The position numbers and the translations under genes were made by a program. Under the pieces are notes generated by a model. It saw nothing but the letters and a program-made list of their open reading frames with translations, was not told where the DNA came from and ran no database searches. DNA of 27,218 nt. Source: a virus. This document shows, in pieces, positions 3,360 to 26,777 of the stretch; position 1 is the stretch's first letter, and each line of letters opens with the position of its first letter. The stretch covers positions 1-27,218 of IMG/VR virus record IMGVR_UViG_3300025889_000783, one strand, 5' to 3'.

Positions 3360-4696
3360 TGGCGATCCAGTATTACACCTCGGCCGGAAACGGCACAGAC
3401 CCCACAGCAGGTTGGACGACAGGACACGCCACTTTAGCGGCGGCTCTTTCGGCGGCTAGTTCGGGCGACTCGGTATACATCGACATGGCGAATATCGCTT
3501 CCGGTGACTCTGGTGTAACTACCGCCACGACATGGACAGTCTCGGCCGGCGTAACGCTGCATGTCGGAACGCAAAATGGCGCGACTGATATTACGACCGG
3601 TTACATGGGCACGACATATTGGATCGGTCGATCTACGGCTGGCGCAAATATCACATTAAATACGGGGAAAGGGTGCAAGATCATCGGCGGACTGACACTC
3701 CGGGAGCATGGAGGCAATAGCCTTGTCGTGAACACTACTACGGGCAGCGGGTTTTTGTATGCAGACACGTTGACGCTTTGGCATAGTTCCACAACCGGAG
3801 GGGGCACCTCTAGGATTGGAGGGCAGCAAAACAACCAAACTCAAATCGAGACGCTAAACATAACATATGCTCGTACAAGCTCGACAATCAGTGAGTTTCA
3901 AGTCGCGGGAATTGTGCGGATTGGAGTCTTAACGCTGACCACGGGCGGCGCGACCGCCCCTTCGGGCGGCTGGATCAATGACCCGAATGTCTCCGCTGCG
4001 GCCAATCTGACGGTGAATGGTGGTGACATTTCTGCGCTTGGCAGTGGCGCGACCATTATTGGTGATTGCGGTAGTTCGCCGCTAACGTGCCGACTTGAGA
4101 ACACAATTCTCCCCGCAAGTTTTGTCGGCGTGACCACGCAGACAGGTGGCCTCGCTGGCGGTGAGTTGTTCTTGACCGATTGCTACGAGAGCACCGTTGG
4201 TGCGGTTCCTTTCGGCTACTTTAACGACTCTGGTCAGGTGATTGTTGATACCGGAATTTTCTTGACGGCAGGCATTTCGTCATCTTCGTGGAAAATCTCT
4301 ACTACAAGTAGATGTACTGCGCGCGAACCATTTTGGACGCCATTCATTTTTGAATACCAAGCGGCGGCTACGGTCACGCCTGAGTTTGAAGTGCTGCGTG
4401 AGGGCAATTCTTCTGCATACACAGACGCGGAATTCTGGATGGAGTCGCTTACTAAGCAGACATCCTCATCCGTCGAAACCACTTTTGAATCCACGCAAGG
4501 AACGGGGACGAATATAACAACAGGGGTCGGCACCTCATCATGGACGGTTAGCGGATCGCCGGGCGATTCTGGTGACTGGTCAGGCATTCTCTCCCAAGGA
4601 TCGACAGTGCTAGCAGAAGATGGCTTCGTTAAGAGCCGTATCTGCGCGGCTGTTGCCTCTTCCACGATTTACGTTGATCCGGGGCCGGTAGGCTAA
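3359..4696 (+). CDS. Beta-rich (predicted beta-helix) virion-associated protein
   Basis: A 445-residue protein dominated by short Thr/Ser/Gly/Val-rich strands. It opens MAIQYYTSAGNGTDPTAGW, then AHATLAAALSAASSGDSVYID-like sequence (in fact GHATLAAALSAASSGDSVYID over residues about 22-42), a pattern typical of the first turn of right-handed parallel beta-helix proteins. Repeated I-x-G-x-L-T-L and N-x-T-L units follow, and the C-terminus (about 355-445) looks like a separate domain. No enzymatic motif was seen. GC content is clearly lower than that of the neighbours, with AT-ending codons throughout, indicating horizontal acquisition. The ATG overlaps the upstream stop and the stop overlaps the next ATG. 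Likely a surface-exposed fiber, spike or decoration protein; the precise role is unknown. Confidence 0.6.
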   Translation: MAIQYYTSAGNGTDPTAGWTTGHATLAAALSAASSGDSVYIDMANIASGDSGVTTATTWTVSAGVTLHVGTQNGATDITTGYMGTTYWIGRSTAGANITLNTGKGCKIIGGLTLREHGGNSLVVNTTTGSGFLYADTLTLWHSSTTGGGTSRIGGQQNNQTQIETLNITYARTSSTISEFQVAGIVRIGVLTLTTGGATAPSGGWINDPNVSAAANLTVNGGDISALGSGATIIGDCGSSPLTCRLENTILPASFVGVTTQTGGLAGGELFLTDCYESTVGAVPFGYFNDSGQVIVDTGIFLTAGISSSSWKISTTSRCTAREPFWTPFIFEYQAAATVTPEFEVLREGNSSAYTDAEFWMESLTKQTSSSVETTFESTQGTGTNITTGVGTSSWTVSGSPGDSGDWSGILSQGSTVLAEDGFVKSRICAAVASSTIYVDPGPVG

Positions 4697-5568
4697 TGGC
4701 TGCAACCTCACGCGCATCACCAGGAGGCGGATGGAGTGTAGGAAGTGACTCCGATACGTTCTCCCGTGCCGTTCCCGGTGCCGAGTGGGAAGTGCAACAG
4801 TCCGCCGCCGGCCCGACTGACCTCGCCCTAGCTGACTTGTCGCACGGCCACACGCTCGACCACCTCGACCTCACGCAAACCCACGTCCTGGCCCCGGCCG
4901 ACTTGTCGCACGGCCACACGCTCGACAACCTCGACCTCACGCAAACCCACGCCCTGACCGTCGCCGATATATTGCACGCGCACGGCTTGGACAACCTCGG
5001 CCTCACGCAAGCCCACGTGCTCGCCCTAGCCGACGCGACGCACGGCCACACGCTCGACAACCTCGGCCTCACGCAAGCCCACGTGCTCGCCCTGGCCGAG
5101 CTATTGCACGGCCACACGCTCGACAACCTCGGCCTCACCGGCGCCGGCGATCTCGCCATCGCAGACGCGACGCACGGCCACGCGCTCGACAACCTCGCGC
5201 TCACGCAAGCCCACGTCCTCGCCCTGGCCGAGCTATTGCACGCGCACGCCGCCGACAACCTCGTGCTCGCCGGCGGGAGCTCACTAACGGTTGCCGACAT
5301 CGCGCACGGCCACATCGCCGACAACCTCGCCCTCGGTCAAGTCCACGTCCTCGCGCTCGAGGACGCCTTGCACGCGCACCTCGCCGACGGCCTCGCGCTG
5401 TCGCAATTGCACGTGCTCGTCATATCCGAGGCGGCGCACGCGCACCTACTCGACAACGTCGCCCTCGGCTTGGGCGGCACCGTGCCGCCGCGGCATGTCC
5501 TCGTCGTGCGCGGCGAATCGCGCACGCTCGTCGTCATGCCCAAGTCACCCACGCGCATCATCCACTAA
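4696..5568 (+). CDS. Histidine-rich tandem-repeat protein (ten 22-residue repeats)
   Basis: A 290-residue protein. After a 42-residue N-terminal segment come ten consecutive 22-residue units (residues 43-262), each approximating LALAD-x-x-HGHTLDNLxLTQAHV. Every unit has H-x-H at positions 8-10 and D-N at 13-14; most also have a third His at position 21. A 28-residue C-terminal tail (VPPRHVLVVRGESRTLVVMP) follows. The regular hydrophobic spacing suggests an elongated solenoid or fiber-shaft structure, and the aligned histidines could bind metal. Both ideas are inference. The first 40 codons share the composition of the preceding island; the repeats share that of the main phage backbone, so the junction lies inside the gene. 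Confidence 0.75.
   Translation: MAATSRASPGGGWSVGSDSDTFSRAVPGAEWEVQQSAAGPTDLALADLSHGHTLDHLDLTQTHVLAPADLSHGHTLDNLDLTQTHALTVADILHAHGLDNLGLTQAHVLALADATHGHTLDNLGLTQAHVLALAELLHGHTLDNLGLTGAGDLAIADATHGHALDNLALTQAHVLALAELLHAHAADNLVLAGGSSLTVADIAHGHIADNLALGQVHVLALEDALHAHLADGLALSQLHVLVISEAAHAHLLDNVALGLGGTVPPRHVLVVRGESRTLVVMPKSPTRIIH
4822..5481 (+). repeat. In-frame tandem repeat, 10 units of 66 bp
   Basis: Ten 66-bp units encode the 22-residue histidine repeats. The first five or six are the most alike at DNA level, sharing blocks such as CACGGCCACACGCTCGACAA; the last four have diverged. This gradient suggests unit duplication concentrated at the 5' end, and the copy number may vary between relatives. 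Confidence 0.85.
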
Positions 5569-19540: not shown

Positions 19541-19725
19541 CAATTCGCGGCCCCTTGCCCGTCGAGATAACAGTTTATCGCCGCCTGCGCCTCGCTCAAT
19601 TCCTCGAGGGCGCAATTTACGGCGTTCCGAGCGAACGCCGCTTGCTTTCTTGCGTCCTCGAGCGCCGATTGTGCGCGGGATAATTCCTCGTGAAGCTCGG
19701 CGATGTTGCGCTTCGTGTCGCTCAC
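19540..19725 (-). CDS. Small coiled-coil hypothetical protein
   Basis: A 61-residue protein, almost entirely helical (ELHEELSRAQSALEDARKQA followed by more heptad-like repeats), ending YLDGQGAAN. The GTG start at 19725 overlaps the integrase stop, and its stop overlaps the next start, so it is translated as part of the integrase operon. It could be a small regulator or structural helper. No family was recognised. Confidence 0.55.
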   Translation of the reverse strand: MSDTKRNIAELHEELSRAQSALEDARKQAAFARNAVNCALEELSEAQAAINCYLDGQGAAN

Positions 19726-20726
19726 TTCGCGGCCTCCTGTTCGTCCGGCGGATCGATCCAGTCAAGGCCGGCGGCCTCAATGTATGTTTGCGTCATTGCC
19801 TTGCTCGAGTGCCCACCGAGCCGGCGCGCATTCTTGCCCTGGCGCTCGGCGTCGGTAATGGCCCGATGCCGCAAATCGTGAAAGTGTGCATCGGTCACGC
19901 CGGCGGCGTTGCACGCGCGTTCCCATGCCGAATTTGCGCCGCTATACGTCAACGGCTGGCCGGCGCGCGTGTGCACGACCCACAACGACGACACCTTAGT
20001 CGCCACGCGGCACCGCTCGAGCACCGCGCGCAATCGGGGCGTCATGCGGATCGGGACGGCGACAGCCGTTTTTTTCTGGACCTTCGCCGGCCGGAAAATG
20101 ATGCCATCGGCGCGGACGTCCGACCATTTGAGCGACAGCAAGTCGCCGATTCGCTGCCCGGTCACGAGCGCCAAGTCGACGAGTCCGGCCGTCATCGCCG
20201 AGGATTTCGCCTTGATGCGCGCGATTTCCTCGTCGGTCAAATACCTCGAGCGCGCGCTCACCGAAAAGCTCGCAATCTCGCGGACCGGATTGTCATCACG
20301 CCGGCCGCGGCGTACCGCGTAGCTCATAATGAGAAGAAGCAACGATCGATACGCATTGCCGGCGCGCGGGCGATCCTTCCATTGATCGACGAAGTCGGCC
20401 ACGTCCGACGGGCGCACGTCGGCGACTTCGAAGTCGCGGAAAGCCTCGGCGATGACGACGGCCATGCGCTCATATTCTTTTTTCGTCGCCGGCGAATACT
20501 TGCCGAGCTCCGCGCCTTTCCATGCCGACACGATTGCCGGCATGGCCGAATCGCTCGGCGGCCGATGGAGTCTCGCGAGGGCATCGTAAAGCGCGGCCGG
20601 GCCCTCGTCGACGCGCGACAACGGCAACCATCGCCGCTTGAGCCGGCCGCGCCGATCGCGCTCGACGGACTGCGCGATCCAGAAATAGCGCCCGTTTTTT
20701 GCTGTGACCTTCGGCGGTAGTTTCAT
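19722..20726 (-). CDS. Tyrosine recombinase (phage integrase)
   Basis: A 334-residue protein. The N-terminal part (about 1-55) looks like an arm-binding domain, followed by a SAM-like core-binding domain (about 60-150) and the catalytic domain. Catalytic residues seen: Arg192 in TGQRIGDLLSLKW, a Lys at about 216-219, HxxR in His283-Asp-Leu-Arg286, His306 in LGGH and the nucleophile Tyr315 in TQTYIE. It would integrate the phage at the tRNA-Pro site whose 3' half lies about 480 bases beyond its end. The ATG at 20726 is chosen because it overlaps the DUF4224 gene stop (ATGA). Confidence 0.92.
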   Translation of the reverse strand: MKLPPKVTAKNGRYFWIAQSVERDRRGRLKRRWLPLSRVDEGPAALYDALARLHRPPSDSAMPAIVSAWKGAELGKYSPATKKEYERMAVVIAEAFRDFEVADVRPSDVADFVDQWKDRPRAGNAYRSLLLLIMSYAVRRGRRDDNPVREIASFSVSARSRYLTDEEIARIKAKSSAMTAGLVDLALVTGQRIGDLLSLKWSDVRADGIIFRPAKVQKKTAVAVPIRMTPRLRAVLERCRVATKVSSLWVVHTRAGQPLTYSGANSAWERACNAAGVTDAHFHDLRHRAITDAERQGKNARRLGGHSSKAMTQTYIEAAGLDWIDPPDEQEAAK

Positions 20727-20977
20727 CGCCCCACCTCGCGCACGCGCGGCCGGTTCACGTCGCGGCCGTTGGCGACGTAGCGCCCGTCGCATACGGCCTC
20801 ATAATGTGCTCGCTCGAGAACGCACCGGCCGAGCCGGTCAATGCGCGCACGCGGAAAGCCGAGCCGATGGAGCTCGGCCAATTGCTCGCCGGCGCGGCTG
20901 TAGCCCGTGACGTCGAAGAGCTCGAGGTGAGACAGCGTCGGCGCCGCGCCGATGGGGGTGACGGTTCCGGTTTGCAA
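20723..20977 (-). CDS. DUF4224 protein (integrase-associated, possible excisionase)
   Basis: An 84-residue protein containing LELFDVTGYSRAGEQLAELH then LGFPRARIDRLGRCVLERAH, the winged-helix-like DUF4224 pattern found directly before phage integrases. By position and size it may act as an excisionase or directionality factor; this is inference. The start is TTG at 20977, seven bases after a perfect AGGAGG (20990-20985 on the minus strand), so it is preferred over an upstream extension that lacks a ribosome site. ATGA links it to the integrase. Confidence 0.75.
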   Translation of the reverse strand: MQTGTVTPIGAAPTLSHLELFDVTGYSRAGEQLAELHRLGFPRARIDRLGRCVLERAHYEAVCDGRYVANGRDVNRPRVREVGR

Positions 20978-22197: not shown

Positions 22198-22260
22198 ATA
22201 GCGCATTTCTGGCCGCGTGTACGAGGCATTAATAGCGCATTTCTGGCCGCGTGTACGAGG
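22198..22260. repeat. 34-bp-period direct repeat upstream of the XRE regulator
   Basis: A 29-bp sequence at 22198-22226 recurs without change at 22232-22260, offset 34 bp; similarity continues for several bases beyond each copy. It fills the gap between the two leftward regulator genes. It could be a binding site for a regulator or a recent tandem duplication; the sequence cannot tell which. Confidence 0.85.
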
Positions 22261-22262
22261 AA

Positions 22263-22709
22263 TTAGTCATCCGCGCCGGCTTTTTCTGGCTTGGCGGATC
22301 CCGGTAGACGGCCGGCGGCCCGGTAGGCGCGCGCACGTCGGGCGCGTACGGACAGCGTCGACAGTACGCGGCGTTGATCGTCAGGGAGGAGGGCACGATA
22401 GTCCTCAATGAGCTCGCGCGGAATATCGGCCGGGAGCGGCTCATCGCCGCCGATGCGATCCATCCAGCCGGGCGCCTTGCCGAAATGGTACTCGAGCGCG
22501 CGCGCGAGTCGGTCGCCGATGTTGCGCCGGCTGGCCTCCTGCGACGACGTGATCCGATACAGGCTCACCGGCGACGCCAGATTGAGCCGCCGCGCGACCT
22601 CGGCCACGTTGCCGCCGCATTCTTCACGAAGTAACCGATCGTATTGGATAGCTCGAACTCGATGGATTGCTAACGTCGGCACGGTCAAGGCCCCCGGTGA
22701 AAATGACAC
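22263..22709 (-). CDS. HTH repressor-like protein (CI position)
   Basis: A 148-residue protein. The N-terminal half has GGNVAEVARRLNLASPVSLY, an HTH, followed by ASRRNIGDRLARALEYHFGK and APGWMD, a signature common in phage repressor N-terminal domains. The C-terminal part is basic (VRARRARAYRAAGR) with no peptidase motif. It is divergent from the Cro/YdaS-like gene with operators O3 and O4 between them, the classic CI-Cro arrangement. The GTG at 22709 gives 148 residues; a GTG at 22682 is an alternative start preceded by GGGGG. Confidence 0.7.
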   Translation of the reverse strand: MSFSPGALTVPTLAIHRVRAIQYDRLLREECGGNVAEVARRLNLASPVSLYRITSSQEASRRNIGDRLARALEYHFGKAPGWMDRIGGDEPLPADIPRELIEDYRALLPDDQRRVLSTLSVRARRARAYRAAGRLPGSAKPEKAGADD

Positions 22710-23284: not shown

Positions 23285-23595
23285 CGACGCCCATGACCAT
23301 CGCCGAGCGCATCGCCAACGATCCGACCTTGCCCGGCCGCGTCCTGCAATTGCGCCTCGCGCCGGCCGAATGGCGCCGGCTCATCGAGTACAACGTCGCC
23401 CACTTTATCGCCGACAACATCATCAAGGCCGGGCTCGACCTTGCCGGGCGCCGCGCCGAGCTCGAGCTCGTGCCCGATACCGTGCGCCGCGCCGTCGAAG
23501 CCAACCTCGTCCGCTACTTTTCCGGCCGCGCCGAGCTTCGTGCCCGCGATCGCGCGCATGCGCCCGGCGCCGTCGATTTCACCGGCGAACTATGA
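23281..23595 (+). CDS. Hypothetical protein of the early operon
   Basis: A 104-residue mostly helical protein (MTTPMTIAERIANDPTLPGR, then RLIEYNVAHFIADNIIKAGL). It is linked by ATGA overlaps to the upstream HTH gene and to the primase gene downstream, so the three are translated together. No family was recognised. The position suggests a replication accessory role. Confidence 0.6.
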   Translation: MTTPMTIAERIANDPTLPGRVLQLRLAPAEWRRLIEYNVAHFIADNIIKAGLDLAGRRAELELVPDTVRRAVEANLVRYFSGRAELRARDRAHAPGAVDFTGEL

Positions 23596-25856
23596 GCACC
23601 ATCGACCACGCCATCGCGCAGATGCGCGCCTTCGACATGCCGCCGCTCGAGCGGCCGACGATATCGGGCAAGGTCATTCGCTACGGCCCGAAAAAACGCG
23701 CGTGGTACGTGATGCGCGAATTCCAAACCCGCACCGGCGCGCGCGTCATCACCGGCGCCTTCGGGATTTGGGGCCGCCTCGACGCCGTCACCATCGAAGT
23801 CGATTGGACGGGCATATCCGAGGACGAACGACAACGCCTCGAGGCCGATCGGCGACAGCACCGCGAGGCCGAGGAGGCCAAACGCGCCGAGCGCGCGCAA
23901 TTCGCCGCGAACCGAGCGCGCCAGCAATGGCACGCCGCCAACCGCGTCGGCGGTTCCCCGTACCTGCAACGCAAACAAGTCACGCCCGAGCCCGCGTTGC
24001 GCTTCATGGCCGACGGCACCGTGCTCGTGCCCATGCTCCGGTACGACGGACAGCCGCGCCTCATGGGCTTGCAAAAGATCGCGCCCGACGGCGCCAAACG
24101 ATTCAATGCCGGCATGGCGAAAGAGGGCACCGCGTGCCGCTTGGGAAAACCGCCGACCGACGGCGACGTGATCGTCATCACCGAGGGCCTCGCCACTGCG
24201 CTATCGATCCGCATGGCGCTCGAGCGCCGCACGACGGTCTATGTGGCTTTCGATTGCCTGTCGCTTCTCCCCGCGGCGCGGATCCTGCGCGCGCTTTATC
24301 CATCAAGCCGCATTCTTTTTGCCGCGGATGACGACTACATGACCGAGGGCAACCCCGGCCTCACCAAAGCACACGCCGCCGCCGAGGCCCTTGGGAATGC
24401 GGACGTCGTCGCGCCGGTATTCAAGAGCCGCGACGCCGGCGCCAAGCTCACCGATTACAACGACCTCCACGTCACCGAGGGCCTCGCGTGCGTCGCCGAG
24501 CAAATGTCGCGCGCATTGAGCTCGGCAAGCGGGACAGCCGCGCCCGGCGCCGCCGCGCCCGGCGCCCGCGCCAAGCCTCGCAACCCGGTCGACCCCACGC
24601 GCCTCGAGCGCCTCCTCGAGCATTACACGTTCATACGCGGCACTGATACGGTGTACGACGGCGAGCACAAACAGATCATTAGCGTCGCCAACCTGCGCCT
24701 CGCCGAGAACAAAGCCGCCGTCAATGCGTGGCTCGAGCACCCCGACCGGCGTACCGTGATGGACGATTGCGTCCTATTCGATCCGACGTCGTCGAATGAC
24801 CCCGACACATCAATCAACCTGTTCGACCCCGCCGAGATTCGGGCGCCCAATGTCGGCGGCGCCTGCGAGCGCCTCATCGCGTTGCTGCAATACCTGTGCG
24901 GAGAAGCCGAGCAGGAAATGACGCCCGTCACCGATTGGGTGTTGCGATGGTTCGCGTACCCGCTGCAACACCTCGGCGCCAAGATGCACACCGCCGTCGT
25001 GTTCGCCGGGCCCGAGGGCACGGGTAAGAATCTGATATGCGGCGCCATTAAGGCCATGTATGGCCGCTACGGCGGGCTCATCACGCAAACCGAGCTCGAG
25101 TCGCAGTACACCGATTGGCGATCGCGCAAGCTATTCATCATCGCCAACGAAGTTATCACGCGACAGGAAATGCGCCACCAAGTCGGCAAGCTGCGCAACC
25201 TCATCACCGAGGACATGCTCCCGATTAACACGAAATTCATGTCGACGCGCTACGAAGCCAACCACATGAACCTCGTGTTTTTGTCGAATGAGTTACAGCC
25301 GCTTTTCCTCACGCGCGGCGATCGGCGGTACATCGTCATCCGCACGCCGGGCCCGATGTCCGATCAAACCTACGTCGACATCGCCGACGAGCTCGCCGGC
25401 GGCGGCGCCGACGCCTTCCATGCGTACCTTCTCAACCTCGACCTCGACGGATTCAAGCCGTACACGAAGCCGCCAATGACGGACGCCAAAGAGGCACTCA
25501 TCGAGCTCGGCATGACCTCGGTCGAGCTTTTCTTTCGCGAATGGTCCGCGGGCCTCCTGCCGTGGCCCTACGGCCCCGGCTTGAGTGAGGAGGTGTATGC
25601 CGCCTATCGCCGCTTCTGCGAGCGCGCCGGCGAGCGTATGCCGGCCAAAGACAATCGCTTCTGGCCCGAGCTATTGAGTCTTGCCGGCGATGCCCGCAAG
25701 ACCGTCGCGCGCGTCATCGATCCCGGCGACCCTTCCGCGCCCGCGCGCCAGCGTCGCGTGTTTATTGTCGGGCGTTGGGATGACACGCAAAAGCCCGGCG
25801 AATGGCTGCGCGAGCACATCGTCGCCTTTCACACCAGCATGGACGGCGCGAAATGA
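23592..25856 (+). CDS. TOPRIM primase / DUF5906-type P-loop helicase
   Basis: A 754-residue protein. Residues 1-115 are an N-terminal region with an Arg/Glu-rich helix (80-112). The TOPRIM domain spans about 190-300, with Glu198 in VIVITEGLATALS and the Asp cluster AADDD (244-248). After a Pro/Ala linker (about 310-335) the helicase part follows: Walker A GPEGTGKN at 473-480, Walker B-like KLFIIANE at 513-520 and LVFLSNE (561-567) as motif C, as in SF3-like/DUF5906 primase-helicases. It likely primes and unwinds phage DNA. The ATG overlaps the upstream stop. Confidence 0.85.
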   Translation: MSTIDHAIAQMRAFDMPPLERPTISGKVIRYGPKKRAWYVMREFQTRTGARVITGAFGIWGRLDAVTIEVDWTGISEDERQRLEADRRQHREAEEAKRAERAQFAANRARQQWHAANRVGGSPYLQRKQVTPEPALRFMADGTVLVPMLRYDGQPRLMGLQKIAPDGAKRFNAGMAKEGTACRLGKPPTDGDVIVITEGLATALSIRMALERRTTVYVAFDCLSLLPAARILRALYPSSRILFAADDDYMTEGNPGLTKAHAAAEALGNADVVAPVFKSRDAGAKLTDYNDLHVTEGLACVAEQMSRALSSASGTAAPGAAAPGARAKPRNPVDPTRLERLLEHYTFIRGTDTVYDGEHKQIISVANLRLAENKAAVNAWLEHPDRRTVMDDCVLFDPTSSNDPDTSINLFDPAEIRAPNVGGACERLIALLQYLCGEAEQEMTPVTDWVLRWFAYPLQHLGAKMHTAVVFAGPEGTGKNLICGAIKAMYGRYGGLITQTELESQYTDWRSRKLFIIANEVITRQEMRHQVGKLRNLITEDMLPINTKFMSTRYEANHMNLVFLSNELQPLFLTRGDRRYIVIRTPGPMSDQTYVDIADELAGGGADAFHAYLLNLDLDGFKPYTKPPMTDAKEALIELGMTSVELFFREWSAGLLPWPYGPGLSEEVYAAYRRFCERAGERMPAKDNRFWPELLSLAGDARKTVARVIDPGDPSAPARQRRVFIVGRWDDTQKPGEWLREHIVAFHTSMDGAK

Positions 25857-26173
25857 CCAAGCCTCGCGACCGTTCGCCCTATCGTGTGACAGGTATGACG
25901 GGCACGCTCGCGCTCCTGTCACGCGCTAACCCCCAGATTTACAACGCATGTGACGGGTGTGACGGGTGTGACGGGCTCGGCGCCTATATGCATGCGCGTG
26001 TGCGTGTGCGTGCGTGTGCGCGTGCGTGCGCGCGTGCATGCGCCGGTTATCTATTTATACCTGTAACACCTGTCACACCCTCACCAAACACAAAACAATC
26101 AAACGCTTGTCCTGTGACGGGTAGCGTGACACGTGTGACGGGCTCAACCGATCGGGGAGACGATGCAAATTGA
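25853..26173 (+). CDS. Uncertain small frame across the iteron region
   Basis: A 106-residue frame starting ATGA-coupled to the primase. It stays open because the 9-bp iterons are a multiple of three; the translation gives CDGCDGCDG and VTP/VTG runs and an Arg/Ala/Cys stretch from the alternating tract. It has no recognised domain. It is more likely a by-product of the repeats than a gene, but coupling to the primase leaves the possibility open. Confidence 0.25.
   Translation: MTKPRDRSPYRVTGMTGTLALLSRANPQIYNACDGCDGCDGLGAYMHARVRVRACARACARACAGYLFIPVTPVTPSPNTKQSNACPVTGSVTRVTGSTDRGDDAN
25885..26142. repeat. Candidate replication origin: 9-bp iterons around an alternating purine-pyrimidine tract
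   Basis: TGTGACGGG occurs at 25949-25957, 25958-25966, 25967-25975, 26113-26121 and 26134-26142. Variants are at 25885-25893 (TGTGACAGG) and 25894-25902 (TATGACGGG). Inverted variants occur at 25915-25923, 26060-26068 and 26069-26077 (CCTGT[A/C]ACA type). Between them is the alternating tract, followed by a short A/T-rich patch (26047-26059 and 26086-26104). Iterons, a melting-prone patch and an adjacent primase-helicase gene fit a phage origin; function is inferred. Confidence 0.55.
25985..26043. other. 59-bp perfectly alternating purine-pyrimidine tract
   Basis: Every base from 25985 to 26043 alternates pyrimidine-purine, mostly GC and GT/TG steps (ATGCATGCG at one end, GTGCATGCGC at the other). 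Such tracts can adopt Z-DNA under negative supercoiling. It lies in the middle of the iteron region, where a supercoil-sensitive element could help initiate or regulate replication. Confidence 0.8.
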
Positions 26174-26777
26174 CGTCAGAGTGAACGTGCGCGAACAACG
26201 GCGCGCCCTCAATCAATTCGGCGAGGACATCCGCAATCGTGTCGTCGCGCGGGCCCTCAATGAAGTCGCCAAGCAAGGCCGCACGCAAATGACGCGCGCG
26301 ATCGCCAACGAATTCGATATGCGTCAAGGCGAGATCCGATCCGGCTTGACGATAAGCCGAGCGCGCGCCACACGCGGGCGCCTGCAATTCGTGGTCGAGC
26401 TTCGCGCACTCCAAAAGTCTCGAGGGCGCGGATACAACCTGATCCGTTTCGTCGAAAACAAAGTCACGCTCGCCGAGGCACGCCGGCGCGCCAAGGCCGG
26501 CACGTTGCGTCAAATCGGATTCAAGATCAAACGCCGCGGCGGCATACGGCGCATCCCTGGCGCGTTCATCGCGCGCAACCCGCGCACCGGCGGGACGGCC
26601 GTATTCATGCGTGAGGGCGCCGGCCGGTTGCCCGTCAAGGCCCTCACAACCATCGACCTCGCGCAAATGTTCAACACGCGGCGCATCAATGCCAAAGTGG
26701 TCGCGTTCATGCGCCGACGGTTCGCCGAAATACTCCCGCGCGAGATCGCGTACTACGCAGGAAAGGCCCGCCCATGA
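26163..26777 (+). CDS. Minor tail protein Z-like protein
   Basis: A 204-residue, basic, helical protein. Features are MQIDVRVNVREQRRALNQFG, then VVARALNEVAKQGRTQMTRA and a GAFIARNPRTGGTAVFMREG loop near the C-terminus, matching the phage minor tail protein Z family, which completes tail-head attachment. A GGGGAGA site stands two bases before the ATG. Its place between the replication gene and the (unseen) terminase, well away from the other tail genes, is unusual. Confidence 0.7.
   Translation: MQIDVRVNVREQRRALNQFGEDIRNRVVARALNEVAKQGRTQMTRAIANEFDMRQGEIRSGLTISRARATRGRLQFVVELRALQKSRGRGYNLIRFVENKVTLAEARRRAKAGTLRQIGFKIKRRGGIRRIPGAFIARNPRTGGTAVFMREGAGRLPVKALTTIDLAQMFNTRRINAKVVAFMRRRFAEILPREIAYYAGKARP

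Follow-up and report, generated by a model that had tools for sequence, protein, structure and literature searches.

The iterons on which SaPI Rep acts follow its own gene directly, and the protein engages them through its C-terminal domain, apparently as two hexamers (PMC7581432). In PICI origins an AT-rich region has a set of iterons on either side, and cloned pri-rep-ori is able to replicate (PMC6092414). The SCCmec helicase Cch2, for which a putative origin is described in PMC7581432, is also of the D5 type, and its isolated C-terminal domain binds downstream repeats; the passages on it describe three 5-nt iterons and neither paired inverted iteron arrays nor an RY block. In the pRN1 minimal replicon, an SF3 helicase with a winged helix requires sequence 3' of its rep gene, and a bidirectional start is suggested from symmetry, as it is here, whereas the primase is of the archaeo-eukaryotic type and a stem-loop is present with explicitly no iterons (PMC4234260). 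The alpha protein of phage P4 combines a Toprim primase, a helicase and a winged helix in one repeat-binding protein acting at ori, by the description in PMC4234260. P4 is a satellite.

The lambda-type ori resembles the proposed origin in having iterons, which a phage initiator binds in lambda. The lambda iterons are inside the initiator gene, and the host DnaB is recruited.

The sequence analyzed here is the IMG/VR record IMGVR_UViG_3300025889_000783, positions 1–27,218, a linear virus fragment of 27,218 nt designated below as the window. The following genes frame the locus.

1–957: capsid protein, Phage_capsid match
19722–20792 (−): integrase
23592–25856 (+): primase-helicase
26163–26777 (+): Minor_tail_Z

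The window also holds further long ORFs of the late/tail region and two HTH repressor genes. A 34-bp unit, ATAGCGCATTTCTGGCCGCGTGTACGAGGAATTA, is in tandem duplicate with 97% identity at 22198–22265, at the start of and between the two minus-strand HTH repressor genes, and is a candidate operator. In the late-gene region, the ORF 4696–5568 contains coding repeats of 33/66/132 bp (4821–5395), and its product is composed of repeated HGHTLDNLxLTQAHVLALAD-like units.

The space between the primase-helicase and Minor_tail_Z genes is occupied by an element of 9-bp iterons around an alternating purine-pyrimidine (RY) tract. This element is very probably a DNA replication start site, and the best reading is an origin of the SaPI/PICI type with a self-loading primase-helicase. 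A probability of roughly 0.87 is assigned to the reading that it is the phage replication origin and that the upstream primase-helicase would assemble on it via a C-terminal winged helix, as judged from sequence, structure models and analogy. In common with the SaPI/PICI rep-ori (Ubeda 2007 as cited in PMC7581432; PMC6092414) are the helicase with a C-terminal domain that is here a putative DNA binder, the origin directly downstream of its gene, and two sets of short iterons around a putative melting region. The AT-rich middle is clear in low-GC relatives and is 13 bp in the window. Unlike SaPI/PICI, the element belongs to a tailed phage that has capsid and tail genes of its own, the primase domain is of the Toprim type, and the core has conserved RY blocks, not AT-rich DNA only. 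The record itself is not a PICI satellite, since it has Phage_capsid, Minor_tail_Z and further tail-region ORFs; by analogy, the element probably works like a PICI origin all the same. A pRN1-type origin was rejected because of the Toprim_3 and phrog DNA primase matches and the presence of iterons. A lambda-type origin was rejected as well: all five exact iteron copies are outside the initiator gene, 3' of its stop codon, and the initiator includes a helicase of its own.

Anatomy of the element and its layout in relatives

The features of the element are as follows.

25853–26173 (+): 106-aa ORF, overlapping the primase stop (ATGA) and spanning the element, judged spurious
25885–25902 (+): left outer iterons TGTGACAGG TATGACGGG, one mismatch each against TGTGACGGG
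25915–25923 (−): left outer inverted iteron CCTGTCACG, two mismatches against TGTGACGGG
25949–25975 (+): left inner array, three exact tandem TGTGACGGG
25985–26043 (no strand): RY tract, 59 nt, uninterrupted, predicted to be Z-prone
26047–26059 (no strand): short AT-rich stretch TTATCTATTTATA, candidate melting site from the sequence
26060–26077 (−): right inner inverted array CCTGTAACA CCTGTCACA, two and one mismatches, inverted repeat I1
26113–26142 (+): right outer direct iterons, exact at 26113 and 26134

Exact copies of the iteron TGTGACGGG start at 25949, 25958, 25967, 26113 and 26134, five in 306 nt, and none is found in the remaining 26,912 nt of the window. Copies with one mismatch are at 25885 (+), 25894 (+) and 26069 (−), and those with two mismatches are at 25915 (−), 25917 (+) and 26060 (−). 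The order along the element is direct iterons, RY tract, inverted iterons and direct iterons again. The inverted copy at the left outer place recurs in relatives (e.g., L270, L280, L378), and the right outer copies have the same orientation in L270, L280, L285, L442 and L444. The RY run, at the length given in the record, is the longest in the window; in 60 dinucleotide-preserving shuffles of the window the longest run has a mean of 17.4 and a maximum of 23. The AT-rich part of the core is only 13 bp in the window, beside this GC-rich tract.

An earlier note, made from the letters alone, had placed a candidate iteron-type origin at 25885–26142, and these coordinates are correct to within a few bases. 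The 59-bp alternating tract flanked by direct and inverted 9-bp iterons was recovered as the 59-nt RY run with its exact and imperfect copies, and the placement directly downstream of the primase-helicase also holds, the first iteron copy following the stop at 25856 by 28 nt. The note further warned that the region can hide under a false gene call. The frame 25853–26173 is indeed open for 106 codons, with an ATGA overlap, and in Stenotrophomonas phage S1 a hypothetical protein, gp2 (L277 2454–2804), is annotated over the whole element. The possibility that the element is a protein-coding gene is nevertheless negligible: the ORF has no match in Pfam or PHROG, an ORF with the ATGA overlap is present in 28/120 and absent in 92/120 relatives among the matches listed, and the peptides are unrelated and repeat-derived. 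S1 gp2 is likely a false gene call.

The relatives were picked by primase similarity alone, from the best 80 matches per list in one collection, and the region 3' of the stop codon was then examined. By sequence comparison, the layout is common to about a hundred related viruses, while the iteron sequence varies. In 73 non-redundant loci among the matches listed, the longest RY run within 450 nt after the stop has a median of 17 against 9.0 in control windows of the same loci (Wilcoxon, 2e-13), and a run of at least 12 is present in 65 of them. The most repeated 8-mer in the region after the primase stop has a mean of 6.2 copies against 1.9 in dinucleotide shuffles, and the self-similarity of this region peaks at lag 9. 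The iteron orientation is mirrored, one way to the left of the RY run (175:9) and the opposite way to the right (138:25). The core between the inner arrays is ~90 bp (about 89–94 bp), with RY blocks at both inner edges and a more AT-rich middle. The pattern was kept in most loci on extension to 120 non-redundant DUF5906 loci and 7 VapE loci among the matches listed, the element being further downstream of the gene in the VapE group. Among the intergenic gaps listed for three complete, annotated phages, the one that follows the primase has the longest RY run.

The origin claim of the earlier note was to fall if relatives that keep the primase lacked the layout; the layout is present in most of the 120 relatives, and its conservation after the primase supports a candidate origin of the iteron type, whose repeats the primase-helicase would read. 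Iteron turnover, covariation with the C-terminal domain of the primase and the AT-rich stretch in the core go beyond what the note described. The GC skew, a check named in the note, shows no switch at the element, neither in the window nor in three complete relatives, and is uninformative for the origin. A DNA-level search of the element among named phages gave no match, as expected from the turnover of the iteron sequence. In this large group of temperate phages, most origins lack an annotation or are covered by false gene calls, and the loci supply a candidate with defined coordinates.

Several variants of the layout were observed. In the VapE-type phages L446 and L481–L483, GTCCCAC/TGTCCTAC-type iterons and an RY block are ~380–640 nt after the VapE gene. 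In Moraxella-type phages (L281, L282, L366–L373) the primase is kept and iterons are kept in most, the RY block is missing, in a natural loss, and the core is AT-rich. The RY block is thus not universal among phages with this primase type. A CTCGCG box is recurrent, in 27/71 cores against 4.6 expected. In the form TCTCGCG/CGCGAGA it borders the RY blocks on their inner side, mirrored left and right (e.g., L300, L305, L311, L419, L427), and is perhaps a second protein site.

The primase-helicase and iteron turnover

The proposed initiator is a 754-aa protein of the Toprim/DUF5906 (D5-like SF3) type. Its profile matches are phrog_2249 DNA primase (E-value 1.8e-121) and Pfam DUF5906 (3.6e-14), with a Toprim_3 match (6.9e-6) marginally below the Pfam cut-off. 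With the AF2 model of the whole protein (pLDDT 92.5), Foldseek against PDB returned the NrS-1 helicase (CTR) at 1.3e-20, D5/E5, the SaPI5 Rep primase-helicase 7ola at 1e-8, and PriRep1 7pds. The model predicts for the initiator a helicase fold of the D5/SF3 type, as in SaPI/PICI.

25509–25853 (+): C-terminal winged-helix domain, ~residues 640–754, proposed iteron reader (AF2 domain model)

The AF2 model of this domain (pLDDT 92.2) has the predicted order helix, helix, strand, wing, strand, helix. Its best neighbors in VIA-align are RFX DNA-binding domains (Z 6.8), followed by the winged helices of ORC/Cdc6 and the NrS-1 C-terminus at Z 5.0–5.5, all of them modest values. Foldseek with the domain alone gave no match under an E-value of 0.001.

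The iteron differs by phage. It is TGTGACGGG in the window and TGTGCCGGG in L270, the nearest relative among the matches listed (primase 62% identical), and in others TGTGTTGGG, TGTGCAGGG, CCACGCC, CTACGGC or GTTAAGGG. Across 65 primases, iteron similarity tracks identity only at residues 694–754 (rho 0.274, against a highest value of 0.157 in 300 permutations). The partial correlation given whole-protein identity is 0.298 for these residues against 0.116, and a fine scan places the peak at the wing, residues 705–730. Control DNA from four places (core middle, core edge, downstream, and gene 3' end) shows no such signal for the same region of the protein, with partial correlations from −0.11 to 0.06. 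The covariation is of modest size (rho about 0.27), and comparing iterons by a 16-nt consensus measures their similarity coarsely. The winged-helix fold matches (Z up to 6.8) and the covariation together suggest that the C-terminal domain is an iteron-specific dsDNA binder. Dozens of iteron/initiator pairs occur naturally in these phages and could be used to derive the code by which the winged helix recognizes its sites.

We infer the following course of initiation. The C-terminal winged helix of the primase-helicase would bind the 9-bp iterons, and the inverted inner arrays would load two opposed helicase rings, a double hexamer, over the ~90-bp core. The core would then open, and the same protein would prime both forks for bidirectional replication.

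The covariation also bears on two other functions of the arrays. An operator, attenuator or terminator controlling the downstream late genes, with the inverted arrays serving as repressor sites or working at the RNA level, is very improbable. The element does have an early replication gene on one side and late genes on the other, and its strand folds better than shuffles (z −4.6), but this fold is accounted for by the inverted repeats. No promoter or terminator match was found in a scan of the element, nor any Rfam match, several loci have direct copies at the right outer place, of which a hairpin would have no need, and the iteron sequence tracks the winged helix of the primase. A packaging site (cos or pac) recognized by the small terminase is still less credible: packaging genes are a few kb downstream in relatives, yet the element keeps its place at the primase stop, with the terminase genes ~2–3 kb off in PG1, Turba and H4907. 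Besides, it is the primase with which the iterons covary, and the same layout occurs beside several helicase families.

RY blocks of the core

The RY blocks adjoin the inner iterons and flank an AT-rich segment. The RY run is 15.8 at the left core edge against 9.7 in dinucleotide shuffles of the same 35-nt edges, and 10.2 against 7.1 at the right. CG/GC steps are enriched in the blocks and TA/AT steps are reduced. The AT-rich core middle is clear in low-GC relatives (AT 0.7–0.85), and in phages of 36–40% GC the blocks are GC-rich CGTGCGCGCG islands beside long A/T stretches. The idea that RY blocks merely substitute for AT-rich DNA in GC-rich genomes was rejected because these 36–40% GC phages carry GC-rich RY blocks adjoining AT-rich middles.

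Alternating tracts can expand by slippage. It is unlikely, while compatible with the origin reading, that the RY tract is a neutral slippage product without function inside a real origin, as the extreme length of the 59-nt tract in the window and the Moraxella relatives without the block might suggest. Against it, the blocks are at fixed places, at both inner core edges, across primases 30–40% identical with differing letters; they exceed dinucleotide shuffles and are GC-rich islands in AT-rich genomes. An origin read by its structure, as proposed for pRN1 and phage BIP-1, has an initiator that recognizes a cruciform or stem-loop and not iterons. The inverted arrays could form a long stem, and the pRN1 data (PMC4234260) give this alternative a precedent. 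It is very unlikely here, since the RY tracts have no excess of self-complementarity (3.23 against 3.20 in R/Y-preserving shuffles), the repeats follow one another in tandem every 9 bp, some of them direct on either side, and their sequence covaries with the predicted DNA-reading domain.

For the origin read through its iterons, the RY blocks probably make the AT segment melt by storing or focusing negative supercoiling, either through a B-to-Z transition or as rigid, GC-rich borders. The window tract has an estimated Z threshold of |sigma| 0.028, the lowest of 101 loci in this rough estimate. The dinucleotide energies behind it are textbook values. The threshold alone is not distinctive, because many RY runs elsewhere in the same genomes are also below 0.05. 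Z-DNA formation by the blocks may take part in opening. The stronger proposal, which is tentative and rather doubtful, is that firing of a phage origin requires the paired RY blocks as a conserved Z-DNA switch: they would flip under negative supercoiling or upon wrapping of the iterons by the initiator, and would hold the melted bubble, bounded by B-Z borders, in the AT-rich middle. If true, natural and widely conserved Z-DNA would be a working origin part in phages whose initiator swaps its recognition sequence. GC-rich borders that favor melting of the AT stretch are a simpler option, discussed in a review (PMC5043065), which calls it unclear whether left-handed DNA or GC-rich borders help origin opening. 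The element offers a way to test whether either of them does. The kind of origin is already known from SaPI/PICI; for the conserved Z-prone RY blocks, or Z-DNA or RY tracts at phage origins in general, no matching earlier description was found in the open-licence literature.

Facing arrays beside other helicase families

DNA was also scanned for two TGTGACNNN units facing two inverted units, 60–90 nt apart. This facing pattern was found in 84 stretches of IMG/VR, against 28 with the opposite orientation, and half of the 84 have an RY run of at least 12 in the core. The same scan of 84,980 prokaryote genomes revealed 57 stretches. Helicase domains (D5_N, DUF5906, VapE-like or DUF927) are encoded by 16/20 genes near arrays, most of which end at the arrays; these 20 genes were hand-picked by eye and the fraction is indicative only. 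The sequences hint that the same origin layout may exist in another helicase family, DUF927. In L130 (11309–11411) and L239 (2534–2648), paired inverted 9-mers directly follow DUF927 (Cch-like) helicase genes, one of which includes the Cch helix-turn-helix domain.
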